NCBI RefSeq assembly: GCF_009711415.1
Contig: NZ_SMLZ01000112.1
Location: 62,001 to 126,000, forward strand
Direction: 5' to 3'
Source: Roseibium denhamense
Lineage (GTDB): Bacteria; Pseudomonadota; Alphaproteobacteria; Rhizobiales; Stappiaceae
Length of the DNA: 64,000 nt
The notes beneath the pieces were generated by a model, which was not told where the DNA came from, made no database searches, and saw nothing but the letters and a program-made list of their open reading frames with translations. Below are positions 14,435 through 49,867 of this stretch, one piece after another; the first letter of the stretch is position 1, and the number at the start of each line of letters is the position of its first letter. The position numbers and the translations under genes are program-made.

Positions 14435-14567
14435 AACGCCCCACAAGTAGAATGACCATTCTACCTTTCGATATAGAAGCGCCGGACCGGCGTCAAGCAA
14501 GTCAAAGCCGGAACACCACAATAGATTACCTGTCAGGCAAGCCCTTGCAGACTATCTGCTGGCATGA

Positions 14568-33489: not shown

Positions 33490-33567
<78 letters not shown>

Positions 33568-33724: not shown

Positions 33725-34483
33725 ATGGCTGAGCGTCGTCCGTTTCGGGAAGTGAAACTTCAGTGGCTGCGTCTGCTGAGCTGTGATGCCAATATCAACG
33801 ACAATGCCAAGTGCGTTGCGCTCTACATCGTGACAGCACATGTAAACGGCCACACCGGAAAGGCGTGGCCGTCCTACAAGACCATTGCCGAAGCAACCGG
33901 CAAGAGTGTCAAATCCATCCAGCGTGCCATCCGAGATCTCGAAATCGGTGGATGGCTCGGCGTTCAACGCGGGAATGGTGTCGGGCACAATACGGAGTAT
34001 CGCCCTACCGACGCTTCGATCATAAAGGCCTCGCAGCTTCGGGAAAAGACGGACAAATCTGTCCCCCTTAACCACGCTGAAGGCGGACAGATCTGTCCCG
34101 AAAGGCGGTCAGATGTGTCCGGCAAAGGCGGTCAAATCTGTCCACCAAACTTAGAGAAAGAAATAAATAAAAAACCTAACGGGCGTGAGGCGCGCGCGAA
34201 GGCCGTCGCTGGCCGTGCTGTTCCCGTCGTCAACGTCCCCGTCAGCCACGGTCACATGATCCGGGAATGGAATGCTTGGCTTGCCAGGAAGTCTCTACCC
34301 GACCTGGTTCGTTTCAATCTCAACTCAGCGTCGCCTGGAACTGGTTGGTATCGACTTCCTGGCCGTTGGCCGCCGGAAGATGGCTCGGAAAAAGAGCAGG
34401 ACTGCCTGTCGTATTTCCTGAGCAGACTGCCAGCAATCGCGCACCAAACCGCCTCCCAGACAGCCTACAGGCAAGCGGCATGA
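33725..34483 (+). CDS. Winged-helix replication-initiator-like protein with internal iterons
   Basis: A 252-residue protein. The N-terminal winged helix (residues 15-90) reads NDNAKCVALYIVTAHVN, AWPSYKTIAEATGKSVKSIQRAIRDLEIGGWLGVQRG, the HTH_36 form found in phage and plasmid replication proteins. The middle is a repeated GGQICP-type linker whose DNA carries four near-palindromes. The C-terminal part has VSHGHMIREWNAWLARK and FNLNSASPGTGWYRLPGRWP and is unrecognised. The stop codon overlaps the start of mobC (ATGA). A function in element replication or in transcription control are both possible; the internal repeats favour replication. No replicative helicase gene is next to it. Confidence 0.72.
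   Translation: MAERRPFREVKLQWLRLLSCDANINDNAKCVALYIVTAHVNGHTGKAWPSYKTIAEATGKSVKSIQRAIRDLEIGGWLGVQRGNGVGHNTEYRPTDASIIKASQLREKTDKSVPLNHAEGGQICPERRSDVSGKGGQICPPNLEKEINKKPNGREARAKAVAGRAVPVVNVPVSHGHMIREWNAWLARKSLPDLVRFNLNSASPGTGWYRLPGRWPPEDGSEKEQDCLSYFLSRLPAIAHQTASQTAYRQAA
34051..34143. repeat. Four iteron-like near-palindromes within the Rep-like gene, next to an AT-rich stretch
   Basis: Copies at 34051-34064, 34085-34098, 34107-34120 and 34130-34143 fit GG(A/T)CA(A/G)AT(C/G)TGTCC; the second, GGACAGATCTGTCC, is a perfect palindrome. Start-to-start spacing is 34, 22 and 23 bp, roughly whole helical turns. A 29-bp AT-rich run (34150-34178) follows. The layout is like the lambda origin inside gene O. 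The repeats also encode similar peptides, so a coding origin alone is possible. Confidence 0.6.
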
Positions 34484-34941
34484 CTGCGGCGGATCTAACA
34501 AGAGCAAGGCGACCCGTGTCATACGACACAGGACCTTGCGAGGGGCGGCACGCCTCCCCTTCGAACCCCTCAGGACCGCAAACGGCCCGTCTCGATGAGA
34601 CAGTTGTTATGCGCTGTACGACGGAGGAAAAGAGACATCTCAAGCGCCGCGCCGCCGCGGACAAAATCTCCGTCTCAGAGCTGTTGCGCGGAGCCTTGGG
34701 GCAGATCAAGGCTCCTCGCCGCCGTGCCACGCCGCAGGCCGATCCGCAGCTTGTGACAGCGCTCAGCCGCATCGGCACCAACCTGAACCAGATCGCCCGT
34801 GCCGTGAACGCCGACCAGGCCGCTGGCGACATGCGCCAGATCGAAGGCCTGCAGCTGCTCGCCGAGCTGATCGGCATCGAGCGCCAAATGTCGGTCCTCC
34901 TCGCCAGCCACACACGGCGGGACGCGGATCATGCTGATTAA
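34480..34941 (+). CDS. mobC: Mobilization accessory protein MobC/MbeC-like (ribbon-helix-helix)
   Basis: A 153-residue protein with a central ribbon-helix-helix segment DETVVMRCTTEEKRHLKRRAAADKISVSELLRGAL and a C-terminal helical part ALSRIGTNLNQIARAVNADQAAG, typical of relaxosome nicking-accessory proteins (MobC/MbeC family). These bind oriT and assist the relaxase. The start ATG shares the ATGA of the Rep-like gene stop, and it overlaps mobA by 11 bp. A longer frame from 34267 exists but lies inside the previous gene. Confidence 0.85.
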   Translation: MTAADLTRARRPVSYDTGPCEGRHASPSNPSGPQTARLDETVVMRCTTEEKRHLKRRAAADKISVSELLRGALGQIKAPRRRATPQADPQLVTALSRIGTNLNQIARAVNADQAAGDMRQIEGLQLLAELIGIERQMSVLLASHTRRDADHAD

Positions 34942-36556
34942 ACTCTTCCGAAGCGGCAAGGGCGGTGGTGCGGCGCCGGTTGATTACCTAATCGCGTCAC
35001 AGGTGCTCGCCTACGACGGCAATCGCGATCACGTGCGCGACGACGAAGGCGTTCCCCTGATGAAGGCGCGTGATCCGCTGCCGGAAGTGCTGGCGGGCGA
35101 TCCGGACCACACCCGGGCGCTGATTGATGCTTGCCCGCACGCCTGGACGTACCGGGCGGGTGTGATCAGCTTCGATAAGGACGATCATCCGACCGAACAT
35201 CAGCAACAGGCCGTCATGGATGCCTTTGACGAGCTCGCTTTTGCCGGTCTGGACCGCGACCAGGTCGACATGCTCTGGGTCCGGCACAGCCATGAAGGCC
35301 GCGTGGAATTGCATTTCTGCACACCGCGCATGGAACTCACGTCGGGCAAGAGCCTGAACATTGCTCCTCCCGGCTACCAGAAGGCCATGGATGCTCTGCG
35401 CGACATGCTCAACAAAGAGCATGGCTGGGCCGATCCGCAAGATCCGGCCAGGTCACAGGACACCAAGCAGCTTCCGGAAAAGAAGCTTCGGGCCCAGGAC
35501 CGCGAGGACATCCGAAACTGGCTCGAAGACCTGATCGTGGCCGGTTGCATCTCATCCCGGCCGGACATGGTCGCCGCGCTCGAAGGTGCCGGCTTCGAAC
35601 TGCCCCGCCAGGGCAAAACCTATCTCACAGTCAAGGACCCGGACAGCGAAACACGCTGGCGGCTCAAGGGAGACATTTTCCATGCAGATTGGACCAGAGA
35701 GAAGACCGCTCAGAGAGCGGCTGAGCGAGAATATCGAGCAGATGCACCAGGAGGATCAGAACGCCTCGCTGCTCGAAGCCATTCAGACCTCCGAGACGAA
35801 TATCGAGCGCATGTTGAAAGGCGCAAGCTCTACAATGAGCAACGATATCCGCTCATCCCAAGAGAAACTGAACGCGACCTTAGAAGGACACTTGAGGTCG
35901 AGCGAGGAACAGCTCTTTCAACTGAAAACGAGCTTGGAGCAAAACGCGAAACTAGCCACGAAGAACCGCATGTTGAAGCTGTCGACGGCAGTCCTGATCT
36001 CGGCCGTCCTGACCCTCGGCAGTGTCCTTTTCCTGGAGAGCCACTTGAGAGGGGCGCTGATCGCCTCGGCATTCAATCACGCGACATTCTCAGAGTTTCC
36101 GGTCCTGATCTTCAACACAAAGACCGGCACCTATCAGCGCTGCCAGCGCACACCAGAGCGGTTCATCTGCCAGGAAACGAAGTAAAGCCCCATGACAGAA
36201 ACCAATCCCCCCTCACCGAACTTGCCTTCCCGGCAAACCCTGACGCCGCTCGAGCGCGGGTTGCTGAGCTTGGTCGAACAATTGACCAACGCCTTCGAAC
36301 ATTCGACCGCTCAGCTGGAGCACTTGGAAAGACGCTCGACCGGCTCACTGGAAGAGCGGCTGACCGAGCTCGAGACGTTGCTCGACAGGTCCATCAGCTC
36401 ACAACGAGCCTTCAACGAGGCCTTGCTCGACTTGCTCAGTGCGCCGGAGTCCTCCGGCAGATCGGTGGACGCGCTTTGCAGGATCATAGACAATCCCAGC
36501 AGTGTTTACGGAAAAGAGCCATAGCGCCGGATCTGCGCCGCAACATGGAGCGTTAA
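34931..36556 (+). CDS. mobA: Relaxase (MobA/MbeA-like, HEN-related motif)
   Basis: A 541-residue relaxase that would cut at oriT and pilot the single strand. The N-terminal domain begins MLIKLFRSGKGGGAAPVDYL. The motif region is MLWVRHSHEGRVELHFCTPRMELTSGKSLN: H119, E126 and H128 have the same spacing (+7, +9) as the H-E-N signature described for ColE1 MbeA, with His replacing Asn. Residues after about 250 are charged and low-complexity and are read in the same DNA as two more genes in another frame. No oriT could be located with confidence. It follows mobC with an 11-bp overlap. Confidence 0.85.
   Translation: MLIKLFRSGKGGGAAPVDYLIASQVLAYDGNRDHVRDDEGVPLMKARDPLPEVLAGDPDHTRALIDACPHAWTYRAGVISFDKDDHPTEHQQQAVMDAFDELAFAGLDRDQVDMLWVRHSHEGRVELHFCTPRMELTSGKSLNIAPPGYQKAMDALRDMLNKEHGWADPQDPARSQDTKQLPEKKLRAQDREDIRNWLEDLIVAGCISSRPDMVAALEGAGFELPRQGKTYLTVKDPDSETRWRLKGDIFHADWTREKTAQRAAEREYRADAPGGSERLAARSHSDLRDEYRAHVERRKLYNEQRYPLIPRETERDLRRTLEVERGTALSTENELGAKRETSHEEPHVEAVDGSPDLGRPDPRQCPFPGEPLERGADRLGIQSRDILRVSGPDLQHKDRHLSALPAHTRAVHLPGNEVKPHDRNQSPLTELAFPANPDAARARVAELGRTIDQRLRTFDRSAGALGKTLDRLTGRAADRARDVARQVHQLTTSLQRGLARLAQCAGVLRQIGGRALQDHRQSQQCLRKRAIAPDLRRNMER
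35682..36185 (+). CDS. MobB-like coiled-coil membrane protein nested in mobA
   Basis: A 167-residue frame inside mobA, in a different reading frame. It begins MQIGPERRPLRERLSENIEQMHQEDQNASLLEAI after a GGGAGA ribosome-binding site. About residues 30-95 are a predicted coiled coil, about 100-122 form one transmembrane segment (STAVLISAVLTLGSVLFLE), and a short Cys-containing tail (RCQRTPERFICQETK) would be on the far side. The amino-acid composition looks like a real protein and the frame stays open over 500 bp. In ColE1 mbeB is nested in mbeA at the same place, which supports the call; sequence similarity to MbeB is not visible to me. Confidence 0.7.
   Translation: MQIGPERRPLRERLSENIEQMHQEDQNASLLEAIQTSETNIERMLKGASSTMSNDIRSSQEKLNATLEGHLRSSEEQLFQLKTSLEQNAKLATKNRMLKLSTAVLISAVLTLGSVLFLESHLRGALIASAFNHATFSEFPVLIFNTKTGTYQRCQRTPERFICQETK
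36192..36524 (+). CDS. MobD/MbeD-like coiled-coil protein nested in mobA
   Basis: A 110-residue hydrophilic protein starting MTETNPPSPNLPSRQTLTPLERGLLSLVEQL, with a coiled-coil stretch (FEHSTAQLEHLERRSTGSLEERLTELETLL). It starts 6 bp after the nested MobB-like gene and also lies in the mobA sequence but in a different frame. MbeD in ColE1 occupies the same position and is an entry-exclusion or mobilization factor. Assigned by layout and coiled-coil character, not by a clear motif. Confidence 0.62.
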   Translation: MTETNPPSPNLPSRQTLTPLERGLLSLVEQLTNAFEHSTAQLEHLERRSTGSLEERLTELETLLDRSISSQRAFNEALLDLLSAPESSGRSVDALCRIIDNPSSVYGKEP

Positions 36557-37200
36557 ACCGATAGGCGAGATTTCTCTGACCAGTGCACCTTTGCAAAGAC
36601 AACAAAAAGCCTGGGAGCGGAATGTCGGGTTAATATATGGGTTGGCAAGCTGACGCTGATCTTTCTGATACCGTTGGTGAATTTCGGCTCACACCGGACT
36701 TTCATTCTGAGCGCAACAGTTTTCCGGTACGAGCCCAGAGTGACCGATGCTGCGATGTCTACCAAGGGCCGCTTTGACGTCTGAGGTTTTTCAGATGATG
36801 ATGGCACTTACTGATCAAAGAACTGGAAAAAACGACGGTGCGATGTTTGAAAAAGCAAAAATCCTGATACCAGCGCCAATGGACAAAATAGTGGCTGACA
36901 TAGGACTCAGCTCCCCTACGAACCTCATCAACGAATATGTAGACATCAGCGTAACGGCCAACCTTAGGCGCAACTCTGTCAGGATTCCCCTTAACGAGGG
37001 TGGCTACATCGAATAGGATTTCGCACTCAAACGAGCCCTAATACAGTTTGCTTGGGCAAACTGTGAGCTGATGCCGACGAGTTCAACGGAGGGGGCCTTA
37101 ACCGGGCAATTTGAGAACATGGACACCTCCGGATATCGGGCTGGCGCCGTTGAGGCGATCGTAATTCCGTCGGATTGAGGCGAGAACGGGTGAGGTAAGC
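36557..37200. other. About 640 bp between mobA and the IS5 remnant, no clear gene
   Basis: A plus frame without a start codon (about 36547-36781) and a minus frame (36553-36807) both stay open, and an 89-codon plus frame runs 36747-37016 (it includes KAKILIPAPMDKIVADIGLSSPTNLINEYVDISV). None matches a family I recognise. The overlapping open frames and the transposase debris next door suggest decayed mobile-element sequence. The left end of the IS remnant must lie in 37020-37200, but a terminal inverted repeat could not be fixed. Confidence 0.35.
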
Positions 37201-37592
37201 ATGGCGGGACGACAGGCTGGGGTCTTCGATGTCGAGCATCGGCTGCAGGAACTCTCCGAACATGGCGATCCGCTGGAGAAGCTCAGCGGGACGGTGGATT
37301 TCGAGATCTTCCGGCCGGACCTGGTCAGGGCCTTCGGATCGCGGGGTACCTCGAGGGGTGGCCGCCCGGCGTTCGATCCGGTTCTGAGTTTCGGATGCTC
37401 GTGCTCCAGGCGATGCACGGTCTTTCGTTGGCACAGACCGAGTACCTGGTCGCGGAGCGGCTGAGCTGGATGCGGTTCTGCGGGGTCGGACCGGGCGACG
37501 CGGTGCCGGACGCGAACACGCTCTGGGACTTCCGCAAGGCGCTGATCGCGGCCGGCGCGATCGACGCCCTGTTCGCGAGGCTCGGGCGGGCG
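37201..37592 (+). pseudogene. IS5-family transposase remnant, frameshifted and truncated
   Basis: The N-terminal third of a DDE transposase: MAGRQAGVFDVEHRLQELSEHGDPLEKLSGTVDFEIFRPDL in one frame up to about 37385, then LVLQAMHGLSLAQTEYLVAERLSWMRFCGVGPGDAVPDANTLWDFRKAL in another from about 37395. The two halves belong together but are out of frame, apparently because of a single-base loss near 37390. The catalytic core is absent; the sequence breaks off after ALFARLGRA and joins unrelated sequence. It cannot make transposase. Confidence 0.85.
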
Positions 37593-37712
37593 GCGACAAT
37601 GGAGGGTGCTACGACAGCGTTCCGTAACGAGGAAAAGCTGACATCCCAGGACCGAGAGTTCGTTCAGCAACTGATCGATCAGATGGCGGACAAGCGAGGT
37701 GGAAAGTCATGA
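37593..37712 (+). pseudogene. C-terminal remnant of an XRE-type antitoxin, fused to the IS remnant
   Basis: In the same frame as the IS remnant, the last 36 or so codons read FRNEEKLTSQDREFVQQLIDQMADKRGGKS, which resembles the C-terminus of small helix-turn-helix regulators that precede ImmA/IrrE genes. The stop overlaps the next start (ATGA), the coupling seen between such pairs. The DNA-binding part is missing, apparently replaced by the insertion. The junction at about 37592 is estimated. Confidence 0.5.
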
Positions 37713-38584
37713 GCGCGCCTCGCCTGATACTCGCCGCGAATGCAGCGCAGAAAGTCGTTCAAGAGTCCGCGCAGACTGACCTGCCGATCTGCCCATTCGC
37801 GATTGCGGAGAAGGAATGTATCGAAGTCGTCGCGAAACCGGCCGACGTCGAGGGCGTCAGCGGAGGAATGGTCTTCCAGGACCCACCGATCATCTTTTAC
37901 TCGACCACCATCCGAAGCCGAGCATTCCAGCGCTTCACCGTCGCGCATGAGCTTGGCCACTACTTCGTGGACGGGCACTGGGACCGGATGGGGACGGCTG
38001 GCATGCACGTATCCCGCGCTGGCTTCGGCAGGTCGAGAGATCCGTTTGAGACTGAGGCCGATCACTTCGCGGCATCCTTGCTGATGCCTCGCGCTCACGT
38101 GCGGCGCCTACTGAACCGGGCGCCGAACGGCCTCGCAGCTGTTCGAGCCTTGGCGCGGGACGCGGAGACGTCGCTGACGTCGTCCGCAATCCGCATCGCA
38201 GAGTGCAGCGACGAGCCATTTGCCATGGTCATGAGCCAGCAGGGGAAGATCGGCCACGTGTTCATGTCCGCAGCATTCAAGCGCCTGAAGCCTCGTTCGT
38301 GGCTAAGGAAGGGCGATGCCGTTCCGGAGAGCGCGACGCGCCGGTTCAGCGCCGATCCGGGCCGCGTCACCCGCTCTGACGAGCTCTGTGTGCAGACGCG
38401 GATGGAGCATTGGTTCGGCAGCGGCGATAGGGGTCTTGACGAGGAAATCATCGGCCTCGGTAGCTATGGCAGGACGCTCACAATCCTGTCGTGTAATGGC
38501 GATCCCGAAACAAATGTAGAGGAAGAGAACGAGGAGGAACGGCTACTAGATAGTTGGACGCCGCGGCACGCATACGGACGCTGA
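37709..38584 (+). CDS. ImmA/IrrE-type metallo-endopeptidase
   Basis: A 291-residue zinc protease. The active-site helix is FTVAHELGHYFVDGH (HExxH) and the third ligand is in DPFETEADHFAASLLMPRAHV. ImmA proteases cut a partner repressor to release gene expression in integrative elements such as ICEBs1. The usual partner, an XRE regulator, is directly upstream but reduced to its C-terminus. The protein has a long C-terminal extension (RFSADPGRVTRSDELCVQTRMEHWFGSGDRGLDEE) beyond the minimal domain. Its start overlaps the upstream stop by 4 bp. Confidence 0.85.
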   Translation: MSAPRLILAANAAQKVVQESAQTDLPICPFAIAEKECIEVVAKPADVEGVSGGMVFQDPPIIFYSTTIRSRAFQRFTVAHELGHYFVDGHWDRMGTAGMHVSRAGFGRSRDPFETEADHFAASLLMPRAHVRRLLNRAPNGLAAVRALARDAETSLTSSAIRIAECSDEPFAMVMSQQGKIGHVFMSAAFKRLKPRSWLRKGDAVPESATRRFSADPGRVTRSDELCVQTRMEHWFGSGDRGLDEEIIGLGSYGRTLTILSCNGDPETNVEEENEEERLLDSWTPRHAYGR

Positions 38585-38890
38585 AGAGTCTTTTTGGAGA
38601 GAACCACGGTCTTCTCGTGTTCGTCTGTCCAGAACTGGATAATCGCGCTATTCTTAGGGCGTGATCTTTAACGACGCAGTTCACGGCGAGCCTTTGGCTA
38701 GTCAGTTAAACAAACGCCGACGCCCAGCGGCGAACGCCTTTTCTTCGAAAGCTGAATTGTAACGCATCTCTAACGGCAGCTATGGACCGTCTGCTCATGC
38801 CCCATGTTTGGGCGTAGGCTCAATCCTCAGCGAGCAGCCGGAACGCGCCACTTCCTGCCGTTGGTTGAACGTGCAGCGAGTGACCGCATG

Positions 38891-38969
38891 GATGAAGGTT
38901 TTTCAACGCGGGCCACAGGCAGCCCAAACCGAAACGTTGCACTATGGCCCGCGTCGAAAAACCTTCATC
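38891..38969. repeat. 25-bp inverted repeat (24 of 25 match) with a 29-bp loop
   Basis: GATGAAGGTTTTTCAACGCGG(GCCA) and its near-exact complement TGGCCCGCGTCGAAAAACCTT(CATC) flank a 29-bp spacer. It lies in the 500-bp space (38585-39083) between the ImmA-like gene and the TPR regulator, which otherwise holds no supported gene. It could be a long RNA hairpin or the ends of a lost mobile element. Confidence 0.85.
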
Positions 38970-39083
38970 GAAACAGCCAGGGAGCGTGGATCTGCCAATG
39001 GCTTCCGGTGCGGCGCTGTCGCGAACTGCACCAGACATTGGGTGGTCGCAGCTATGCGTCTTGGATGGATCTGATATCAGGCG

Positions 39084-40697
39084 TCAAGCCGTTCGCCGTC
39101 CCGACGGTATCGCTTCAAGCGCCGTGAGGATGCGCTCTTGGAGATAGGCGGGCTTACCGAATATCTCGAATGTGCCTTCCAGAAAGACCATGGGATCGCC
39201 GTACGCCTCAATGTACTGCTTTAGGCATTCATCGGCTTCGTCGAGGCGTCCGAGCAGGGAGAGGCAAATGGCCTCATAGAGCTCGGGCCCTGTCCAAAGG
39301 GCGTCCCCAATCTTCCGCGTCGCCTCCAGCGCCAGATCATACCGCTCCTCGATGAACTCGACGAGCAAGGTCGCTGCGTGGAACCAGCCGGGCGGGTTCG
39401 GGCAAAGATCAAACGCTCGAGTGATCGCGGCACGCGCCGCGGCGACGTCGCCCGCGAACCCATGACAGATCGAGAGGTCCGCCAGCATATCGGGATAATT
39501 GGGGTTCGCCTCCACGGCGCGTCGGGCGGCCTCTTCGAAGGCTGAAAGGTTACCCCGGATGTGGTGGATCAGAAAGAGGGCGTGCAGACCCGTTGCGTTG
39601 GACGCATCAAGGTCGACCGCGCGTTGGGCTGCTGCGAGGGCGCGGTCCAAGGTCGGACTTTCTTCCTTGGTGTACCCATGACGTAGTGTGTCGAGATAGA
39701 TGATGGCGAGGGTACCCCAAGCGCCAGCGTAGTCTGGATCGAGTTCCAATGCGCGTTCAAGCATCGACTGGATACGGGCGTGCGCTTCGGGCGATGGCGC
39801 CCGCCAATACTCGGTGGCCAGGAGCCGTGCTTCATAGGCATCCAGATTGTCTGTCTCGGTGCAACACCAGCTGCCTACGCGATGGATCATCCCGTGGGGC
39901 GCTGCGATCTTCGCCGCCGTCCGCCCGGCCACATCGTCCTGGATCTCGAAATGGCTCTGGGCCGACAGATCCCGATCGAAGCTTTCCGACAGGACCGCGT
40001 CGCCGGTCCTGGTGCAGACCAGATGCACGGTGACGCGAACGGCGGTCTCTGTCCGTCGGTAGGTGCCTTCGACGAGGTACCCAACACCGAGGTCTGCCCT
40101 GAGTGCCTTGGGCTCTGGCCTCGCATCGATGTAGCGCCAGGTGACGTGGCGCGAGAGCACCCGCAGTTCGCGAAACCGGGACAGAGCCGTCAGGATATCG
40201 ACGCTAAACGCAAGGGCAAGATTCTGCAGGGATGGATCTTCGCTCAGGTTTTCGAAGGGCATAACCGCCACGGACACACGGGCATCGCCTCTCTGGGCAA
40301 GGGACGCCGGGCCTAACTCGCGCTCTGCGATCTCGAAGATCGGCACATACTGGCCCTTGGGCAGCTTGATACGCACCGGGTCACGGCTGCCCTCCTGCGC
40401 ATAGTAGGCCTCGAGCCGCGCGCGCAGCTTGCTTGCCTGGACCCGAACGATGGTATCGGTGCCGGGATCGAAGTCCGATGGCTTGTCGAAGACATCGACG
40501 CCGAGCGCATAGCCCTTGAGGCTTTCGGACCGCCCCTCGAGCGCCTCGGTCACGATATGTTTGAGAAAGCGCTTCAGGCGGGTCGTGTCTGCGAACTTTG
40601 AGCTTTGCACGATACGCGCGAGATGGGACTCGATCATTTTACGATCGGGCGCTTCGTCGGACCCTCTCAGCTGCTCCAACGGTAACGTATCGTTCAC
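39084..40697 (-). CDS. Putative regulator: N-terminal DNA-binding-like domain, TolB/FlgO-like domain and TPR repeats
   Basis: A 537-residue protein without signal peptide or membrane segment. The N-terminal block LKRFLKHIVTEALEGRSESLKGYALGVDVFDKPSDFDPGTDTIVRVQASKLRARLEAYY is a widespread but poorly characterised alphaproteobacterial domain that resembles a winged-helix effector. The next part (VAVMPFENLSEDPS) is like the FlgO/TolB-N repeats, and then about seven TPR-like helices follow (for example LELDPDYAGAWGTLAIIYLD). Such proteins occur beside cyclase-type regulators. It is divergent from the cytochrome gene across 90 bp, so it may control the cargo. Role inferred by layout. Confidence 0.7.
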   Translation of the reverse strand: MNDTLPLEQLRGSDEAPDRKMIESHLARIVQSSKFADTTRLKRFLKHIVTEALEGRSESLKGYALGVDVFDKPSDFDPGTDTIVRVQASKLRARLEAYYAQEGSRDPVRIKLPKGQYVPIFEIAERELGPASLAQRGDARVSVAVMPFENLSEDPSLQNLALAFSVDILTALSRFRELRVLSRHVTWRYIDARPEPKALRADLGVGYLVEGTYRRTETAVRVTVHLVCTRTGDAVLSESFDRDLSAQSHFEIQDDVAGRTAAKIAAPHGMIHRVGSWCCTETDNLDAYEARLLATEYWRAPSPEAHARIQSMLERALELDPDYAGAWGTLAIIYLDTLRHGYTKEESPTLDRALAAAQRAVDLDASNATGLHALFLIHHIRGNLSAFEEAARRAVEANPNYPDMLADLSICHGFAGDVAAARAAITRAFDLCPNPPGWFHAATLLVEFIEERYDLALEATRKIGDALWTGPELYEAICLSLLGRLDEADECLKQYIEAYGDPMVFLEGTFEIFGKPAYLQERILTALEAIPSGRRTA

Positions 40698-40785
40698 AGT
40701 GACTCACTCCTTGCGCCGTCTCTGATGTGCCCAGGTTGTCGCACTCGACACCTGGCACGCGACTATGGAACACGAAGGGCGCAAA

Positions 40786-42393
40786 ATGACAACTGTAGGC
40801 TGGACGTCCATATACGGGCGCAACATTCGCACAGGCGCGATATCGACAACTGCGCTTGCCCTCGTTCTTCTCATGGGGCTGACGTCAGAGGAAGTGCACG
40901 CGGACACCCGAATTGTGATCGACAGCGGGCTCTCTCCTGAAGAATTGGAGATCTATGGGCACAGCGTCGAAATGGATGCGGCGGCCGATACGGGGCTGAT
41001 CCGCGAAGCGTGGTTTCGCGCGCTCGAGGGTTATGATGGGGGTCTCCTGCTCGAGAACCTCGAACGCGAAGGTCTGACGCCAAACTTCACGGATCCGACT
41101 GGGATGCCCATCGGCTTTGGCACGCAGAACGGCTGGGTTGGCCGGAACTGCGCGGGCTGCCATTCGGCGGAGATCCACTACCAGGGCAAGGTTATGCTCG
41201 TACCCGGCGCGCCCAACATGCTGTCCAGCGGTTTTGTGCGTGAGCGGCTGACGCGCGCGCTGGCGGCAACCGCAGCGGATGGCGAGCGGTTGGCGGCGTT
41301 CCAGAACAGAGTGCTCGGCGCGGATGCGAGCGAGGCCGAACACAAGGCGCTAGCGGATGAGATCAGGGCCTGGCTCGACGCCTATTGGGGCGACACACCC
41401 GAGAATATGATGAAGGACTTCGCAGCCCAGGATCGTGCCTATGAGACAACGGGTACTCGCCCCGTTGTCGGTGATCACCCGTTCGAGGCGGTGCGCAACG
41501 CCTGGATGGGGCCACAGAATTATTTCGTGGGCGGAAGCGTCGTCGACATTCCTCAGATCTGGGACGTCGAAAAGCAGGCGAGCATCCATCACAACGGGAA
41601 CACGAACTCCGTTCTCGGGCGCAACGTGATCTCGGCAATCGCGACCTTCTACGCGCCCTCGGTCGAGGCGGTGCTGGACGCCGATCCGCGCCAGTTGGAT
41701 AAAATCGGGAAGGTCTCTGAAAAAATCGACGCGCCGCTTTATCCTGAGGATGTGTTCGGCCCGATCGATCGCGAGAAAGCGGCGCGTGGAGCCGACCTCT
41801 ACGCCCAGTATTGCGCCGCGTGCCACGCGACGACCTTGCCTGAGGGCGAGGTGACCGACCTGCCGCGCTTTACGGCCGAGGAGAGCGGAACGGATGAGGC
41901 CTATTTCGACGTGTTCGAGAAGCCCGTTCTTGGCATCGCAGGTGTTGAGTCACAGTCCTACGGTGATGCGGTCTTGGCCGTGATGGCCGACTTCACCAAG
42001 AAATGGTTCGAGCGCTACGAAATTACGCCCGAAGAGGCAGCGCAGCTCGAAGTTCCCAATCCTTACTGGAAGTTCGATCGGGTCTGGATCAGCCGGCCCA
42101 TGAGCGGGATCTGGGCGGCGGCACCGTATCTGCACAACGGCTCGGTACCGACGATGTATCACCTCTTGCTGCCCGTTTCCGAACGGCCCAAGAAGTTCAC
42201 CTATTTCAGCAAGGAGTATGACCCGGTGAATATGGGCTTTCGGTCGGATCAGCCGCTCGATGCCGCCCCTCTTCTCGCGACCTACGACACGGCAGTTCGG
42301 GGCCAGGGGAACCAAGGGCACGAATACGGCACGTCGATGACCGACGACCAGCGTTACGCCCTGATCGAGTATCTCAAGACCATCGGAGAGTAG
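40786..42393 (+). CDS. RoxA-like diheme cytochrome c / peroxidase-family oxygenase
   Basis: A 535-residue secreted cytochrome. It has a signal peptide (ISTTALALVLLMGLTSEEVHADT) and two heme attachment sites, CAGCH (residues 122-126) and CAACH (343-347). The segment ASIHHNGNTNSVLGRNVISAI and the C-terminal PYLHNGSVPTMYHLLLPVSERPKKFTYFSKEYDPVNMGF and GQGNQGHEYGTSM are hallmarks of the RoxA/RoxB rubber-oxygenase and bacterial fatty-acid dioxygenase group of diheme peroxidases. It should act in the periplasm with c-type hemes. The upstream ATG at 40765 is possible, but 40786 gives a cleaner signal peptide. The substrate is unknown. Confidence 0.85.
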   Translation: MTTVGWTSIYGRNIRTGAISTTALALVLLMGLTSEEVHADTRIVIDSGLSPEELEIYGHSVEMDAAADTGLIREAWFRALEGYDGGLLLENLEREGLTPNFTDPTGMPIGFGTQNGWVGRNCAGCHSAEIHYQGKVMLVPGAPNMLSSGFVRERLTRALAATAADGERLAAFQNRVLGADASEAEHKALADEIRAWLDAYWGDTPENMMKDFAAQDRAYETTGTRPVVGDHPFEAVRNAWMGPQNYFVGGSVVDIPQIWDVEKQASIHHNGNTNSVLGRNVISAIATFYAPSVEAVLDADPRQLDKIGKVSEKIDAPLYPEDVFGPIDREKAARGADLYAQYCAACHATTLPEGEVTDLPRFTAEESGTDEAYFDVFEKPVLGIAGVESQSYGDAVLAVMADFTKKWFERYEITPEEAAQLEVPNPYWKFDRVWISRPMSGIWAAAPYLHNGSVPTMYHLLLPVSERPKKFTYFSKEYDPVNMGFRSDQPLDAAPLLATYDTAVRGQGNQGHEYGTSMTDDQRYALIEYLKTIGE

Positions 42394-42479
42394 GGTCTTC
42401 AGATGCCCCCACCAGGTTCTGTCGAGGGCCTGGTGGGGATGATCGCCCCATGTCTCTCAGACCAAGAAGGACCGCGCCA

Positions 42480-43736
42480 ATGCTGATCCGTCTTCTATCC
42501 GTGACCCTCATCGCCCTCGCTATTCCGACAAACCCGCAGGCGAGCGACCACATCGACCAAGTGGGAAAACTCGGCTCGCATGGGCAGGTCGATATCTCTG
42601 ATCTCTACGCCTATTTCGGCGAGCGCGATTGCACGAACGCCTCCGATCTGGCGGCGTGCCTCCGCGACCGGCCGCTGACACTTGTGGTCAACACCTATCC
42701 GGGCGCTGTGGTGGGCAGCCATTTCTCGCACCACGTTGCCTATGAGATCGTCCTGTTGCCGGGACAGATCGTCGACGGGGAGATTTTACAGTACTCGGAG
42801 GCCCGTGCGGTCGTCATCCGCTGTACCTTTGACGATGACGTGACCCCGGTCGTGACCACTTGCGCCGTGGTCCGCGATGGCGAGACAAGCATGCGCGTCT
42901 CCGCCCCTGCAAGCGCTGTGGTCGAGGGCGATGGTATGCGCCTCTTCAGCGGACTGCGCGCTGATCCATTCTTTTACTCCCTCGGTCACTTCTTGGAGGT
43001 GACCGGCCGCCCCGATACCTTCCCCCCACCGGTTGCCCCGTACTCGGCCGAAAATCCCTTTGGTGGCAACTCGTTCGAGGGGATCAATGTCATTTCGATC
43101 GTGCTCGAGATTGACTGGGATGTGCTTGGTATCGAGGCGGACCTGGTTGGCATCGCCGCCCGCAGCGTCTATGGCCATGGCACCGCGCCGGAGCAGTTCG
43201 ACTACTTCGGGCGGCCCGAGATCACCAATCTCACCTTGCACGACCACAGTGGATCGGCGCCGCTGCGATTGGCGTATAACACGGGCGTTCCGGACGCAGA
43301 GGCCTACCGGGCCCGCCTGCGAGAGAACATCGCCGCCTATGACATGATTGACGGCAAGCAGGACTGGCCACCCGCCCTTCTTGAACGCTTCGTCGATATA
43401 CTGGCAGAGGATTTCACAGTGCTGAACCGTGCTGAACCCTGCGAAGGAGGCGGCGCCTACCTCTCCATCGAACGCGCTCTTCTAAGCGGCGGCGCCGCGC
43501 TCGGTTGTGGGGCGCGCGCCCTCGAAGAAGACATCTTCCGTACGATGTACACGCTGTTCATCGCCGGCGTTGATGGTGACGAGGCCGATTTCGGGATGGG
43601 AGTGGATGGCCCCTATAGCTCCAGCGAGAAGGCGCTCTCAGCCGTCTTCCCTTACCTCGCTGAGCCCTGGGAGGAGCAATGGCCGCATTGGCTGGAATTC
43701 TACCGAGGGGGGAAACGCCGGCAGACCATCGACTGA
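42480..43736 (+). CDS. Secreted DUF4331 family protein
   Basis: A 418-residue exported protein with a signal peptide (MLIRLLSVTLIALAIPTNPQAS). The mature N-terminus reads DHIDQVGKLGSHGQVDISDLYAYFGERDC, the DUF4331 start (usually SSHREAP...DITDLYAF). Later segments include GNSFEGINVISIVLEIDWDVLG and YFGRPEITNLTLHDHSG, both typical of the family. Function is not established in the family. It is 86 bp after the cytochrome gene and probably in the same transcript; several cysteines (C-E-G-G-G, LGCGARAL) could form disulfides. The upstream ATG at 42450 only adds ten residues. Confidence 0.8.
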   Translation: MLIRLLSVTLIALAIPTNPQASDHIDQVGKLGSHGQVDISDLYAYFGERDCTNASDLAACLRDRPLTLVVNTYPGAVVGSHFSHHVAYEIVLLPGQIVDGEILQYSEARAVVIRCTFDDDVTPVVTTCAVVRDGETSMRVSAPASAVVEGDGMRLFSGLRADPFFYSLGHFLEVTGRPDTFPPPVAPYSAENPFGGNSFEGINVISIVLEIDWDVLGIEADLVGIAARSVYGHGTAPEQFDYFGRPEITNLTLHDHSGSAPLRLAYNTGVPDAEAYRARLRENIAAYDMIDGKQDWPPALLERFVDILAEDFTVLNRAEPCEGGGAYLSIERALLSGGAALGCGARALEEDIFRTMYTLFIAGVDGDEADFGMGVDGPYSSSEKALSAVFPYLAEPWEEQWPHWLEFYRGGKRRQTID

Positions 43737-43808
43737 GCCGATCGCGGTCAAAGCTGCCTACTCAGGAAACCGTCATCCCGGACCGTCGAATTGCGAAGGA
43801 GACGTGGC

Positions 43809-44045
43809 GTGCCGATGTGCCGCAGGACGTCAAACACGTCGAAGCGGGAGCCCGGCCCGAGTTCCACAAGGCTTCAGCTTCTCATCATCTCCAGTACAGC
43901 TGGCGTCGCGCTGATCGGGGCAGGCGTGACGGCCTACTTCATGCGCGTCCTCCTCAACAACCAACAAGCTAAAACCAAACGTTGGCGCAAGCAATTGCGC
44001 GCGGCCATCGCCCACAAAACCAGCGAAAAGGGTGAACCGACATGA
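43809..44045 (+). CDS. Small single-pass membrane protein coupled to the FAD oxidoreductase
   Basis: A 78-residue frame. An AAGGAG ribosome-binding site stands 7 bp before a GTG at 43809; an ATG lies 6 bp later. One membrane helix (LQLLIISSTAGVALIGAGVTAYFM) is followed by a basic C-terminal tail (NNQQAKTKRWRKQLRAAIAHKTSEK). The stop codon shares ATGA with the start of the oxidoreductase. Not a member of a family I know. It may anchor or assist the downstream enzyme. Confidence 0.6.
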   Translation: MPMCRRTSNTSKREPGPSSTRLQLLIISSTAGVALIGAGVTAYFMRVLLNNQQAKTKRWRKQLRAAIAHKTSEKGEPT

Positions 44046-45379
44046 CGGCGGAAGCGAAACCCGATTTTCCTTACGTGCAATCCTATTGGAGCCTTGACCA
44101 AGAACTAGAGGTTTCCCCGCCCCTGAATGAGGATCACAGGACAGAGGTCGTGGTCATGGGTGCCGGCTTTGCGGGGCTGGCATCAGCGTTGGGGCTGATC
44201 GAGGCACGACCAGATCTAAAGGTAACGGTGATAGAGGCGCATCACGCAGGATATGGCGCGAGCGGACGCAACTCGGGCCAGATTTTCAATTTGCCGCCTT
44301 TTGCGTGGTTCCTGCAAAATCTCTCCAACTACACGCATCGGACGAATGCGCGGCGGGCCGTGCGCTTGATCGACGATCAAATTGCCAAAACCTTCGCGCT
44401 CCTTGCAGAAGCTGGCCACGACTTTGAGTGCGAGAAGAGCGTTCTGCAGGTTGTTGCCCGCAATGCGGTCACGGCGGCAGGGGCGGCCTGGGTGTGCAAA
44501 CGCTTGCAGAAGGCCGGCGTTGAGACATCGTTCTTTGACGGAAAGGCCGCGCAAGGTCGCGTCGGATCAGCGACCCGTGCAATCCTTGATGTGCCCGCAT
44601 ACAGGGTCCACCCCTTCAAACTTGCCCAAAGCTTGCGCAAAGTCCTGCTGTCTCGGGGTGTCAGCTTCTATGAGGATACCCCGGTTGATCATATCCATAG
44701 CCACACCGGCGGCGTGACCCTGCGCGGACCCGGCTATACCGTCGAGGCCGAAAAAGCCGTCATGACGACGAACGCCTATACCGCAGCGCACAATATCGAT
44801 CTAGACTTCGCCTATCCGAAAGTGACAAACTCGCATACCTACATGATCGCCACCGAGGTGCTGTCCCAAGACGTACTCGACAAGATAACGGCAACCGGCG
44901 ATGGTTTTGGTGACGCCGCGCTCAGGTTCTATTACGGGCGGTTGCATAATGGGCGGCTCCTCTTTGGGGGCGAGGACAGAAAATCGTCTGTCTTGCCGGA
45001 AGAGGATCGACACAAGGCCTCTTTTGCGTCGCTGCATGCGGAGATGCTCAGACGATTTCCATTCCTGGACCACGCAGAAATCTACGCGGCCTGGGGCGGG
45101 GCCTTCCAAAGCAATGTTCTGGAGATCCCACAAATCCGCCGGGCCGGTGTGGGGGGCAACGTGATTTTGAACGTCGCCTACGGTGGCAACGGTGTTTCTG
45201 GCACGCTTATGTCCGGGCGTCTCATGCGGCATCTCGTTCTTCACGTTCAGGACGACCCAGATACTCTGGCTCACCTCCAGCTGCTGGCCGACACCGGCGT
45301 ACCGTGGGCGGGGCTTGTACCATCCGGTATCGGCCTCGCCGCAACGTTTCTTCGCCGATCTCTGGGCTTTCGGTATTAA
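44042..45379 (+). CDS. FAD-dependent oxidoreductase (DAO family, gamma-glutamylputrescine oxidase-like)
   Basis: A 445-residue flavoprotein. The FAD dinucleotide loop is EVVVMGAGFAGLASALGL, followed by YGASGRNSGQIFNLPP, the pattern of the DAO/PuuB group that oxidises amines or amino acids. Later blocks are NTYTAAH-type NAYTAAHNI and AYGGNGVSGTLMSGRLMRHLVLH near the C-terminus. It would oxidise a C-N bond and pass electrons to oxygen or a quinone; the substrate is unknown. It is translationally coupled to the small membrane protein and ends the cytochrome/DUF4331 cargo. Confidence 0.85.
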   Translation: MTAEAKPDFPYVQSYWSLDQELEVSPPLNEDHRTEVVVMGAGFAGLASALGLIEARPDLKVTVIEAHHAGYGASGRNSGQIFNLPPFAWFLQNLSNYTHRTNARRAVRLIDDQIAKTFALLAEAGHDFECEKSVLQVVARNAVTAAGAAWVCKRLQKAGVETSFFDGKAAQGRVGSATRAILDVPAYRVHPFKLAQSLRKVLLSRGVSFYEDTPVDHIHSHTGGVTLRGPGYTVEAEKAVMTTNAYTAAHNIDLDFAYPKVTNSHTYMIATEVLSQDVLDKITATGDGFGDAALRFYYGRLHNGRLLFGGEDRKSSVLPEEDRHKASFASLHAEMLRRFPFLDHAEIYAAWGGAFQSNVLEIPQIRRAGVGGNVILNVAYGGNGVSGTLMSGRLMRHLVLHVQDDPDTLAHLQLLADTGVPWAGLVPSGIGLAATFLRRSLGFRY

Positions 45380-45383
45380 CCCG

Positions 45384-45710
45384 GAACGTAAACCGCGCGG
45401 TGAAAGCAATAGCGAGGGGTCAAACGCACGGTCCGGCAGCCTCGACGTTTCGGATGTCCTGGATGTCATCCAGATCGACCATACGACCGCCGATGTGATT
45501 GTCGTGGACCACGCCAACCCCAAGCCGCTGCAGCAGTCTCATCTGACCTTGGCGATCGATGTCGCCAGTCGGGTGCTTCTTGGCTTCTGCGTGAGCCTTG
45601 ATCCCCGTTCGGTAATGTCGATTGCGGCGTGCCTAGACCACTGTGTCCAGTACAAGACCGCCCATATGGCTGAAGATCACGACGACCTATTCGGTGCAAG
45701 TTCCCAATAG
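45384..45710 (+). pseudogene. TniA/Mu-type transposase fragment
   Basis: From about 45384 the frame reads PERKPRGESNSEGSNARSGSLDVSDVLDVIQIDHTTADVIVVDHANPKPLQQSHLTLAIDVASRVLLGFCVSLDPRSVMSIAACLDHCV. This is the start of the DDE catalytic core of TniA-type transposases (QIDHT and the D of IDVASR). The N-terminal DNA-binding part and the rest of the catalytic core are gone. It follows the FAD oxidoreductase gene directly, and its reading frame begins inside that gene, so the join is a deletion scar. Confidence 0.75.
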
Positions 45711-45925
45711 ACCGAACGGCAGGTTTCGGGAACATTCTCAATCAGCGATTTTTCGGCAGATGGCCGGTTTGTCTACCCTTCGGACGCTCATTCAATCTGC
45801 AACGAAAGCCTGCAATCCGCCCTTCCTGGACGTTCAATAACTCTGCAGCTTAAAGCTGAAAAGGTGCACTTAGCAGTCGAAAAGATACTTTCTCAGGAGC
45901 TATTGTGAAATTGGTACAGCCGTTG

Positions 45926-47095
45926 TTAATGTCCGGCCCCTTCGCTCAAGATGTCTAAGTACGCTCGATAGGCGAACACTCGACCGCGTTTCCGGCCGGT
46001 AACTTCCTCAATTAGGCCGAGGGTTTGCAGCTGCGCCAAAGCCGCATTGACCGTAGGCATAGTGAGCCCGCTTTGTTCCACTGCAGCACTCGCTGTCAGG
46101 AACGGTCGCGTACGCATTAGGTCATGGACCTGAAGGACAGAGCCTGTCCGATCCGCTTCTGCAATAATCCGCTCGCGATCTTCTGCCATTAGAGATGCAA
46201 TCCGGTTCGCGGTTTCAAAGGCCTGATTAGCGGTGTCCGCCACACCATCAAGGAAGAATTCGAGCCAAGCTTCCCAGGCACCGCGCTCACGCACTTCCTG
46301 CAAGAGGCGGTAATAGTCTGCACGATTTGTCTTCAGATACAGCGAGAGATAGAGAAGCGGTTGACGCAGAACGCCCTCGGCACACAGAAACAGCGTGATC
46401 AACAAACGGCCAAGTCTTCCGTTTCCGTCCAGGAAAGGGTGGATCGTCTCGAACTGCACGTGAAGCAAACCCGCCTTGATGAGCGGCGGAATGTCTTGAG
46501 TATCAGCATGCAGAAACTGCTCCCAGTCACCGAGGCAATTCATGACCTCGTTTGGTGGTGGGGGCACGAACATTGCGTTGCCTGGACGGGTACCACCGAT
46601 CCAGTTTTGGGAGCTGCGAAATTCACCAGGGTTTTGCGTGGCGCCGCGTCCGCTGTCGAGCAGCCTGCTGTGCATCTCACGAATTAAGCGAAGGGAAATC
46701 GGCAACGAGGCCATCCGGTCAAGCCCGTACATCATAGCGTCGACGTAGTTGGAAACTTCTCGAATGTCATCAAGCGGCGCACCCGCGACTGCTTCCGTTT
46801 CAAACCTTAAGAGATCGGACAGTGTCGATTGTGTGCCTTCGATCTGCGAGGACAAAACCGCTTCCTTGCGGACGTACATGTAGAGAAAGAGTTCCTTGTT
46901 CGGCAGAAGCACGGAAACTCCATCGAGCCGCCCCAAGGCCCGTTCTGCCGCGCTCAAGCGTGTCAGCAAGTTTGAGAGGTCAATAGAAGGCTTCGGTGGC
47001 AGTGGTGGGGGTACAAAGGCGCGCGCACGTTCACCGGCTACAGACGTCTCAACAAACTTTCCTAAACGTCCATCAAGTTCGCTGGTTTCGGACAC
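45926..47095 (-). CDS. Fic family protein with winged-helix C-terminus
   Basis: A 389-residue Fic AMP-transferase. The active-site motif is HPFLDGNGRLGR (H219). The N-terminal inhibitory helix has SSQIEG (82-87), the class II self-inhibition motif. The C-terminus (TVNAALAQLQTLGLIEEVTGRKRGRVFAY) is a winged helix that may bind DNA, so the protein could repress its own gene. Such proteins occur on mobile elements as toxins or regulators. It runs against the cargo, and its AT-rich promoter region has repeats that look like operators. Confidence 0.9.
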   Translation of the reverse strand: MSETSELDGRLGKFVETSVAGERARAFVPPPLPPKPSIDLSNLLTRLSAAERALGRLDGVSVLLPNKELFLYMYVRKEAVLSSQIEGTQSTLSDLLRFETEAVAGAPLDDIREVSNYVDAMMYGLDRMASLPISLRLIREMHSRLLDSGRGATQNPGEFRSSQNWIGGTRPGNAMFVPPPPNEVMNCLGDWEQFLHADTQDIPPLIKAGLLHVQFETIHPFLDGNGRLGRLLITLFLCAEGVLRQPLLYLSLYLKTNRADYYRLLQEVRERGAWEAWLEFFLDGVADTANQAFETANRIASLMAEDRERIIAEADRTGSVLQVHDLMRTRPFLTASAAVEQSGLTMPTVNAALAQLQTLGLIEEVTGRKRGRVFAYRAYLDILSEGAGH

Positions 47096-47132
47096 GACAA
47101 TGGCTCCAGAGCGTTGAGTACGGAGATTTAAA

Positions 47133-47194
47133 TAACGAAGTTCGTTAATTAAGGAAACATCGATTTCGTTAATTAAGCGCCATCGCTAATTAAA
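47133..47194. promoter_or_regulatory. Operator-like repeats upstream of the Fic gene
   Basis: TTCGTTAATTAAG occurs at 47141-47153 and 47165-47177, with a related GCTAATTAAA at 47185-47194. The first copy overlaps a palindrome TAACGAA-G-TTCGTTA (47133-47147). Copies lie 24 bp apart (start to start), two or more turns. They are 40 to 100 bp upstream of the Fic start and probably bind a dimeric repressor, perhaps the Fic winged-helix itself. Confidence 0.6.
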
Positions 47195-47294
47195 TTGGTG
47201 AAAGTAACGCTCTGTGTAACGGAGAGCCTCTAGCTGGCTGACGCGGATGGCAGTCGAGGAGTTTGCTTGACGGCAGAACTGAATTCCGCGGCAG

Positions 47295-48467: not shown

Positions 48468-48468
48468 A

Positions 48469-48792
48469 ATGAACCTAGAAACCCCGAAACAAGCCGCTGA
48501 ACGCACAATCTTCACCGAGAAACGCATCCGTGCCTGGATCAGCCTGGGCAAGATCCGACACGTGAGGATCGATGGAAGCCTGTTCCTTCCAGAAGGAGCA
48601 ATTGAAGAGTTGATTGAACGAAACACGATTGAGCCATGCCAAGACCCGCAGACCCACCAAAACTCAAAAAGCGCAAGAACCGGCCGTTCTTCTTCATTGT
48701 ATTCCACGATGCCGAGACTGGAAAAAGACGTGAGTGTTCAACAGGTACTTCGAACCGTGACGAAGCTGAGGAAAAGCTCGAAGACTTCCTGA
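48469..48792 (+). CDS. Excisionase-like helix-turn-helix protein
   Basis: A 107-residue protein. Its N-terminal 45 residues (ETPKQAAERTIFTEKRIRAWISLGKIRHVRIDGSLFLPEGAIEELIE) form a MerR-like winged helix of the HTH_17/excisionase type, which directs the integrase towards excision. The second half overlaps the integrase gene by 157 bp in another frame and is low-complexity. The gene follows the small RHH gene by 1 bp. Confidence 0.72.
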   Translation: MNLETPKQAAERTIFTEKRIRAWISLGKIRHVRIDGSLFLPEGAIEELIERNTIEPCQDPQTHQNSKSARTGRSSSLYSTMPRLEKDVSVQQVLRTVTKLRKSSKTS

Positions 48793-49793
48793 GGGATAGG
48801 CGTACCCAACGAACAGGGCGCCCCGTTCCGCCGCACAAAATGAAGATTGCTCAAACGTTGGACGACTATGCAAACTTCAAAATGGGAAAGAAAGCGGCAG
48901 AACGCTTGAGCTACTCGTTGTCCAATCTCCTTACCTTCTGGCAGGATAAAACCGTTGATCAGATCAACCCGGAGACGGTCGAGCAGTATTGGAGGTCGAG
49001 TTCTCGCAAGCGGTCGACCTGCCGCCGCGAACTTACGGACCTTAGATCCGCAGTCAATCATTCAATCAAAATGAACCGCTTGCAGGAGTTTCGTTTTCCA
49101 GAACTTCCAAAGGACAGCAAACCCAGGAAGCGATGGCTGACACAATCCGAGTATGTCCGCCTGTTTTGGGCTGCTGGCGACGAATACCGGAGCAAATTCA
49201 CTTTGCGGCTGTTTTTGATGATTGCATTCTACACGGGAGCCCGCAAGAGCGCGATCATGGAGCTGGAATGGACGCAAATCGATTTCAAAGCGGGAAAACT
49301 GAACTTCAACAAAGACGGCGCGGAGTTCGATGAGGAAGTTGATTCCGAGGGCGGCAAACCTCGGTCTCACATCCCGATGCCACCGGAGCTATTACGGCAT
49401 CTGAAACGTCGGTTCGACCTATATGGCAAAAAGACCGACTTCGTCTTTCATCAAAAACACAATCCGGCCAGACGCGTCAAAAGCATCGATAGAGGCTTTC
49501 GGCAAGCTGCCAAAAAAGCAGGCTTGAAACAGGTCACCCCGCACACTCTTCGCCATACCCGCGTGAGTCTTCTGGTTCAGGCGGGCGAAAAAATCTCTGA
49601 CGTCTCAGAGTACATGGCGATGAGCTTCCAGACCTTGGAGAAGGTCTATTCCCATTTCAACAACGACCATATTCGTGAAATGGCACAGCGCTTGGGACGT
49701 TCGCGAAATGCTCGCAGAACCAATTCCACGGAAAGAGAAATCCGGGAAAAATCGGAAATTTTCGAGAACACGAAAAATCGAGAAATCTCATGA
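48636..49793 (+). CDS. int: Tyrosine recombinase (integrase) of the element
   Basis: A 385-residue phage-type integrase. The N-terminal arm- and core-binding domains occupy residues 15-165 (KKRKNRPFFFIVFHDAETGKRRECSTGTSNRDEAE). In the catalytic domain the conserved residues are R in YTGARKSAIMEL, H-x-x-R in HTLRHTRVSLLV, the later His/Trp-like position, and the nucleophile Tyr in FQTLEKVYSHFN. The stop codon is 27 bp before attR. The start overlaps the excisionase-like gene, implying coupled control. It should recombine the 47-bp att core. Confidence 0.94.
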   Translation: MPRPADPPKLKKRKNRPFFFIVFHDAETGKRRECSTGTSNRDEAEEKLEDFLRDRRTQRTGRPVPPHKMKIAQTLDDYANFKMGKKAAERLSYSLSNLLTFWQDKTVDQINPETVEQYWRSSSRKRSTCRRELTDLRSAVNHSIKMNRLQEFRFPELPKDSKPRKRWLTQSEYVRLFWAAGDEYRSKFTLRLFLMIAFYTGARKSAIMELEWTQIDFKAGKLNFNKDGAEFDEEVDSEGGKPRSHIPMPPELLRHLKRRFDLYGKKTDFVFHQKHNPARRVKSIDRGFRQAAKKAGLKQVTPHTLRHTRVSLLVQAGEKISDVSEYMAMSFQTLEKVYSHFNNDHIREMAQRLGRSRNARRTNSTEREIREKSEIFENTKNREIS

Positions 49794-49820
49794 ATTCAAT
49801 ATCTTATAGATTTATACAAT

Positions 49821-49867
49821 CCTCCGAAGGCAGAGGTCAGAGGTTCGAATCCTCTCGGGTGCGCCAA
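49821..49867. repeat. attR: 47-bp direct repeat copy of the tRNA-Arg 3' half
   Basis: Identical to 33521-33567. It has only the anticodon arm to the CCA end, with no D arm and no 5' acceptor strand, so it is not a second tRNA gene. It marks the right end of the element, 27 bp after the integrase. Confidence 0.95.

Follow-up and report, generated by a model that had tools for sequence, protein, structure and literature searches.

A mobilizable element integrated in a tRNA-Arg gene of Roseibium denhamense carries, as interchangeable cargo, a pair of genes encoding a di-heme cytochrome and a DUF4331 protein, both with signal-like N-termini. The stretch of DNA analysed, hereafter the window, comprises 64,000 nt (NZ_SMLZ01000112.1, positions 62,001-126,000 of the forward strand, assembly GCF_009711415.1), and the pair belongs to a set of five genes at positions 39084-45379 of it. 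Relatives of the DUF4331 protein are encoded repeatedly next to a heme peroxidase of either of two unrelated types and seem to have the same metal-binding-like tip in common, a combination suggestive of an oxidation system not yet described. Here, we argue, with a probability of about 0.4 for the reading as a whole, that the functional core of this mobile cargo would be a secreted di-heme cytochrome and a dedicated secreted partner, the DUF4331 protein, which would bind Cu(II)/Ni(II) at its free N-terminus, and that the heme enzyme would oxidise this partner or trade electrons with it, as proposed for SACCP with MopE. The element, its cargo slot, the gene pair, the interchange of peroxidases, the position of the motif and the His-His pair at RoxA positions 301/302 are all computed, while the metal binding, the redox relation and the reaction of the enzyme are what we infer from them.

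Heme peroxidase genes beside DUF4331

The DUF4331 gene of the window (42450..43736, + strand; PF14224, 35.6 bits against a cut-off of 27) encodes a predicted secreted protein with no NCBIfam match, and the cytochrome gene lies directly upstream (40765..42393, + strand; NF040606, 281.9 bits over residues 77-539). Of 87 genomes of the family one has a DUF4331 relative, and of 385 genomes sampled from the class three do, the source genome being counted in both. Named genomes were scanned with six aligned homologues, which gave 121 confirmed loci, and the best 80 of these 121 were analysed and underlie all counts out of 80 given below; a heme enzyme was scored as a neighbour when its gene lay within 500 bp upstream of the DUF4331 gene on the same strand. 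A RoxA-like di-heme cytochrome occupies this position in 17/80 loci, its match ending at most 85 bp from the DUF4331 start, and in one more (L088) it is found downstream on the opposite strand, giving 18/80 with a cytochrome anywhere. Another 12/80 loci have a DyP-type peroxidase within this distance upstream, and three more have one elsewhere in the locus (15 anywhere); no locus among the 80 has both enzymes.

Among the first 34 loci listed (L062-L095), a cut chosen after the results had been seen, 18 have the cytochrome, 15 a DyP peroxidase and one neither (L068); the DyP count includes the borderline L076, which falls just below both cut-offs (26.7 against 27.5 bits for Pfam, 90.7 against 100.5 for NCBIfam). 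On the DUF4331 tree, from which L095 was omitted and in which L076 was labelled 'other', L062-L094 and the window are set apart from the remaining loci by a branch with 100/99 support. By their titles, the cytochrome-linked loci come from Bradyrhizobium (2), Variovorax (3), Zwartia and metagenome-assembled genomes, the last with titles, which may be wrong, of Alphaproteobacteria, Hyphomicrobiales, beta- and Gammaproteobacteria, Alcaligenaceae and Verrucomicrobiota. Eight linked loci (L078, L081, L083-L085, L089, L091 and L092) are near copies, with cytochromes 84-100% identical.

Three changes are required on the DUF4331 tree for the label cytochrome and three for DyP, a single cytochrome clade on that tree is rejected (p-AU 0.0002), and so is a single clade of the linked cytochromes together with that of the window (p-AU 0.0013). 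Because the trees need several changes and the linked cytochromes do not form one clade, it is probable that peroxidases were swapped or acquired on more than one occasion. Other groupings of the cytochromes gave p-AU values of 0.034 (main linked clade with the window), 0.04 (window with L066) and 0.026 (linked cytochromes without the window). The DUF4331 proteins of the window and L066 pair weakly (89/54), and long branches leave the positions of both unsure. In both, the two proteins have signal-like N-termini and the pair lies on or beside mobile genes. L066, which alone among the cytochrome-linked loci of the 80 encodes an exported-type DUF4331 protein, has a serine recombinase gene directly downstream (L066:4179-5138), which suggests that the pair is mobile there too.

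The Asp-His N-terminus and known pairs

D33, H34, D48 and D51 are invariant in an alignment of 45 DUF4331 proteins, and the window protein, in which a signal-like N-terminus is followed by S-D-H-I-D, has all four. With cleavage sites assigned by start codons and signal-peptidase patterns only, the predicted mature protein has Asp-His as its second and third residues in 78/80 loci, the motif not being seen in the frames of L095 and L123. In 32 loci the protein simply begins M-S-D-H (with a GTG start in L104), and in 46 a small-residue signal-peptidase pattern leaves one residue (Ser, Ala or Thr) ahead of Asp-His. Among 43 exported-type rows, a loose form of the pattern fits cleavage at X-Asp-His in all 43, one residue later in 20 and at any other position in at most 26; a stricter form gives 29, 8 and at most 14, respectively. 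Where the residue before Asp-His is Ala, cleavage may instead fall one residue later.

In an ATCUN site, a free N-terminal amine is followed by His as the third residue; the motif is named together with its metals, copper and nickel, in PMC7701195. The DUF4331 partner probably binds Cu(II) or Ni(II) through an ATCUN-like free N-terminus (Ser/Ala/Thr-Asp-His). The gene neighbourhoods fit such a metal role, as HupE/UreJ-like genes occur in 12/80 loci and TonB-receptor-like genes in 7/80 (6 on the same strand); Pfam identified one gene of each kind (L101, L109), the rest being recognised by similarity to these or to an annotated HupE/UreJ gene in L008. HupE/UreJ proteins form a nickel/cobalt permease family. 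In six loci (L109, L126, L128, L130, L131 and L134; four titled Flavobacterium, one Winogradskyella and one Cyclobacteriaceae), the DUF4331 gene is short and the gene after it has relatives that match within longer DUF4331 genes, so that the DUF4331 protein seems to be split in two there; genes for a TPR protein and a TonB-dependent receptor-like protein come next. An AlphaFold model of the window protein has a mean pLDDT of 81 and is good for the body, to which no solved fold could be matched convincingly by structure comparison. Neither DUF4331, 'DUF 4331' nor PF14224 is named in any paper of the literature searched, which was mostly without subscription papers and preprints.

A di-heme cytochrome with a neighbouring partner has precedents in MbnH/MbnP, SACCP/MopE and CorB/CorA, as set out in PMC3621798. 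There, MopE is described as binding copper with the aid of a kynurenine derived from a tryptophan, a conversion that may be the work of SACCP, and MopE and CorA have a copper link like that proposed here for DUF4331; for MbnP, the paper notes that evidence of a tie to copper was lacking at its time. Methanobactin operons with MbnP/MbnH often have mobile genes nearby (PMC3621798), as the pair does in the window. We propose by analogy that the relation between cytochrome and DUF4331 may be of the same kind as in these three pairs, with the DyP form as an alternative. The window differs from all three in that its cytochrome belongs to the large RoxA-like subfamily (NF040606), its partner, DUF4331, is unrelated to theirs, and a DyP peroxidase replaces the cytochrome in DUF4331 relatives. 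The MbnH/MbnP models TIGR04039 and TIGR04052 gave no match among the NCBIfam hits at E 0.01, a search in which the presence of both models in the library was left unchecked.

The cytochrome and its possible substrate

The first-pass annotation had assigned the cytochrome to the rubber or fatty-acid dioxygenase class and described it as a secreted di-heme enzyme accompanied by a secreted DUF4331 protein; the second part is supported, the rubber oxygenase assignment is not. Like RoxA, the window cytochrome has two CXXCH hemes (CAGCH with H133, CAACH with H354), an axial ligand H519 equivalent to RoxA H641, the PY-HNGSVP motif (here PYLHNGSVP) and a signal-like N-terminus, all in an uninterrupted frame of 542 codons. 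Its scores against the RoxA, RoxB and RoxC models are only 58.6, 57.3 and 57.7 bits, against cut-offs of 1000, 900 and 900.

Further differences concern the RoxA pocket, which was compared in a MAFFT alignment of the window protein, a Steroidobacter RoxA (1274 bits, cut-off 1000) and 33 relatives. W302 joins the two hemes in RoxA. F301, together with F317, holds bound O2 (PMC6797691). In the window, F301 and W302 are replaced by H275 and H276, whereas the relatives have Q (29), H (2), E (1) or L (1) at position 301 and are aromatic at position 302 without exception (W 24, Y 9). At position 317, a column of unsure alignment, they have V (27), T (3), A (1) or a gap (2) and the window T294. The distal-residue check proposed with the earlier assignment thus largely argues against RoxA-type chemistry: since the residues at 301 and 302 are replaced, with the His at 302 the firm and unusual change, a RoxA-type pocket is unlikely. 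That H275 and H276 serve as distal or ligand His residues would be a guess. A RoxA-type rubber oxygenase is not supported, although the enzyme may be another kind of oxygenase, and the equivalent of F317 is uncertain: F295 sits 19 residues after H276, and L071 and L078 have an aromatic residue likewise, compared with 15 residues between W302 and F317 in RoxA and 18 between the published W251 and F269 of PA2077 (PMC4496055).

It is possible, if doubtful, that the cytochrome is instead a periplasmic oxygenase of some compound resembling a fatty acid or an isoprenoid, that DUF4331 binds or processes the product and that the FAD enzyme encoded nearby acts further on it, with no protein maturation involved. 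The partial match to the rubber oxygenase models and the possible survival of F317 as F295 point this way, as does the fact that the fatty-acid di-heme Ccps PA2077 and PA2078, a class defined by oleate dioxygenase or diol-synthase activity, are of the same kind, with CAGCH and CAACH hemes and a MauG-type HNG motif as in the window (PMC4496055). These enzymes have Q at 301 and W (PA2077) or S (PA2078) at 302 (PMC4496055) rather than His-His, and the window cytochrome, unlike them, has a DUF4331 partner. A Polyketide_cyc2 or lipid-transport domain was found in all five scanned DUF4331 proteins of one branch (L008, L070, L071, L078 and L086), and an acetoacetate decarboxylase gene is a neighbour in 7/80 loci. 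L078, from a metagenome-assembled genome titled Gammaproteobacteria, has genes for a GMC-type FAD oxidoreductase and an MFS transporter (L078:5132-8098) divergent to cytochrome, DUF4331 and TPR genes, which would also suit a small-molecule substrate. What speaks against such a substrate in the window is the His-His pair itself, at a site aromatic in 33/33 relatives, and the absence from its DUF4331 protein of any lipid-transport domain in the Pfam search.

Several observations weigh against the metalloprotein-partner reading, and some of them fit a small-molecule substrate better. In the main cytochrome-linked branch, DUF4331 starts MSDH with no signal peptide and all four scanned members carry an SRPBCC-type (lipid-transport-type) domain, while the cytochromes look exported by eye; direct contact between the two is therefore doubtful there, and signal-less, lipid-transport-type DUF4331 proteins would sit more comfortably with oxidation of a small molecule. 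The pairing also holds one way only, since DUF4331 was present in the fetched DNA of none of 18 cytochrome loci (taken from 18 of 42 matching genomes in the phylum sample), and the NF040606-type family serves many other uses. An enrichment of W306 in peroxidase-linked DUF4331 members is confounded with ancestry, L068 having W306 without a peroxidase and L066 lacking it. For the window itself, the predicted cleavage site, judged by pattern alone, has Pro at -3, the AlphaFold confidence is low over DUF4331 residues 11-44, and the cytochrome sits on a long branch (end branch 2.64) outside the linked groups. Contrary to this tree position, the spacing of the hemes favours kinship with the linked cytochromes, being 221 in the window, 222 in 14/15 linked cytochromes and 221-222 in 0/18 unlinked ones, a pattern noticed post hoc.

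The same long branch, with the His at 302, would be expected of an electron carrier or a degenerating enzyme, in which the change of the inter-heme Trp to His has left the hemes uncoupled or bis-His ligated and catalysis lost. We regard this as unlikely, given that the frame is unbroken and retains the two heme sites as well as H519 and PYLHNGSVP; moreover, PA2078 is also without this Trp and yet active, though not via its hemes (PMC4496055). Returning to the metalloprotein partner, its most extended form holds that DUF4331 is a widespread ATCUN Cu/Ni family, exported or cytosolic, in which one branch repeatedly gained a heme peroxidase (di-heme or DyP) as dedicated redox partner, and that the version in the window is mobile and fully secreted, with an enzyme whose distal and inter-heme residues would have changed to His-His for action on the metalloprotein and not on rubber or fatty acids. 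Taken with all its parts, we consider this wider account rather doubtful.

The tRNA-Arg element and its cargo

The element is 16.3 kb long and integrated in the tRNA-Arg(CCG) gene at 33490-33566, with perfect 47-bp att direct repeats at both ends: attL (33521..33567, + strand) in the 3' part of the tRNA gene and attR (49821..49867, + strand) downstream. It encodes a MobA/MbpA-like mobilization protein (34267..34941, + strand; NF041264 and NF041418, E 3e-6 and 4e-6, under cut-off), a relaxase (34931..36556, + strand; PF03432, 25.4 bits against a cut-off of 24.6) and a tyrosine integrase (48636..49793, + strand; PF00589, 69.3 bits). With its integrase, relaxase and tRNA-borne att repeats it qualifies as an integrative mobilizable element; no conjugation machinery appeared among the ten proteins run through Pfam, a screen that included no search aimed at it. 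A palindrome-like 18-nt repeat (GGACARATCTGTCC-like) occurs four times at 34045-34146, within a coding region ahead of the mobilization genes, and is possibly an operator or transfer-origin element.

The cargo slot (36480..45923) is defined by comparison with a related element of another genome of the family, G054 (locus L146; G054:C39:171000-190999), whose DNA match to the window ends at both borders of the slot (blastn blocks 33401-36480, 45923-47203 and 48439-49870). This relative has copies of the mobilization protein and relaxase with 80% and 77% identity and shares the gene for a Fic protein (45926..47095, - strand; PF02661, PF13784; 94% identical). On the left of the slot are a DUF772 transposase fragment (37395..37712, + strand; PF05598, 57.6 bits) and, between it and the five-gene set, an ImmA/IrrE-like (Peptidase_M78) gene (37709..38584, + strand; PF06114, 44.3 bits). 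A 28-nt inverted repeat, 93% complementary with a 23-nt loop, is found at 38891-38969 between this gene and that for the TPR protein. On the right lies a Mu-type transposase remnant (~45454..45646; 68-75% DNA identity to genes annotated as Mu transposase) within an ORF (45183-45710) in which the Pfam search finds no domain.

Besides the central pair, the set comprises a divergent gene for a TPR protein and possible regulator (39084..40697, - strand), a gene for an 84-aa protein with one hydrophobic stretch, hence a one-helix protein (43791..44045, + strand), for which Pfam and NCBIfam searches found no family, and a gene for a DAO-type FAD oxidoreductase (44042..45379, + strand; PF01266, 141 bits), whose sole hydrophobic segment is that of its nucleotide-binding domain and which could be a source of H2O2. 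The cytochrome and DUF4331 genes are separated by 56 bp and the DUF4331 and one-helix genes by 54 bp, and the one-helix and FAD genes overlap by 4 bp (ATGA), spacing expected of one transcription unit; a consensus scan of the gene set found no convincing promoter or terminator. The TPR protein gives a weak HilA/EilA-like NCBIfam match (27.9 bits against a cut-off of 589) and is 51% identical to one on a Ruegeria plasmid, where no cytochrome or DUF4331 gene is annotated within 8 kb.

Part of what the first-pass annotation said of this set holds: the five genes are intact ORFs with correct coordinates and close spacing, they are cargo of a mobilizable element, and they lie between two transposase fragments, with the ImmA/IrrE-like gene intervening on the left. 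Of its TolB/TPR regulator, the TPR repeats were recovered and the TolB-like part was not found in the Pfam and NCBIfam searches. The idea of five genes forming one conserved system falls, as the co-occurrence check it suggested upheld the cytochrome-DUF4331 pair only: the one-helix and FAD genes are same-strand neighbours within 500 bp of DUF4331 in 0/80 loci, and so is the regulator, matches to which occur only 8-9 kb away in 2 loci. The one-helix, FAD and divergent TPR proteins are probably local additions to the pair.

Anti-phage genes occur in both of the related elements found, each of which belongs to a further genome of the family. In L146, genes for MzaB/MzaC-like proteins, DUF4420, a C5 methylase, Vsr and PRTase-CE (4738-16434) fill the slot in which the window has its oxidation module; in L147 (G019:C39:341500-361499), from another genus of the family, the Gabija genes GajA/GajB are present (1298-14849). 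Both elements resemble that of the window in the integrase (94% identity to G054, 76-77% to G019) and the att repeat, L146 also in the relaxase and Fic genes, and both have defence genes where the window has its oxidation module. The L147 element is without a window-like relaxase inside its bounds, and a relaxase-like match (L147 296-993) lying just beyond the att repeat may point to a second, tandem element. This company raises the idea that the window cargo is itself an anti-phage or stress-defence system acting by oxidative damage, which we consider improbable: a PADLOC scan covering the cytochrome, DUF4331 and FAD proteins returned no model match for any of the three, and no defence gene is among the Pfam-read neighbours in L078 (TPR, GMC, MFS) and L066 (recombinase), the two loci read.

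The pair is shown as cargo of an element whose relatives bear anti-phage genes, and for the DUF4331 family a heme peroxidase partner and a possible N-terminal metal site offer a testable handle. If the proposed relation is true, the few known pairs of a di-heme cytochrome and its partner would be joined by one whose partner is unrelated.

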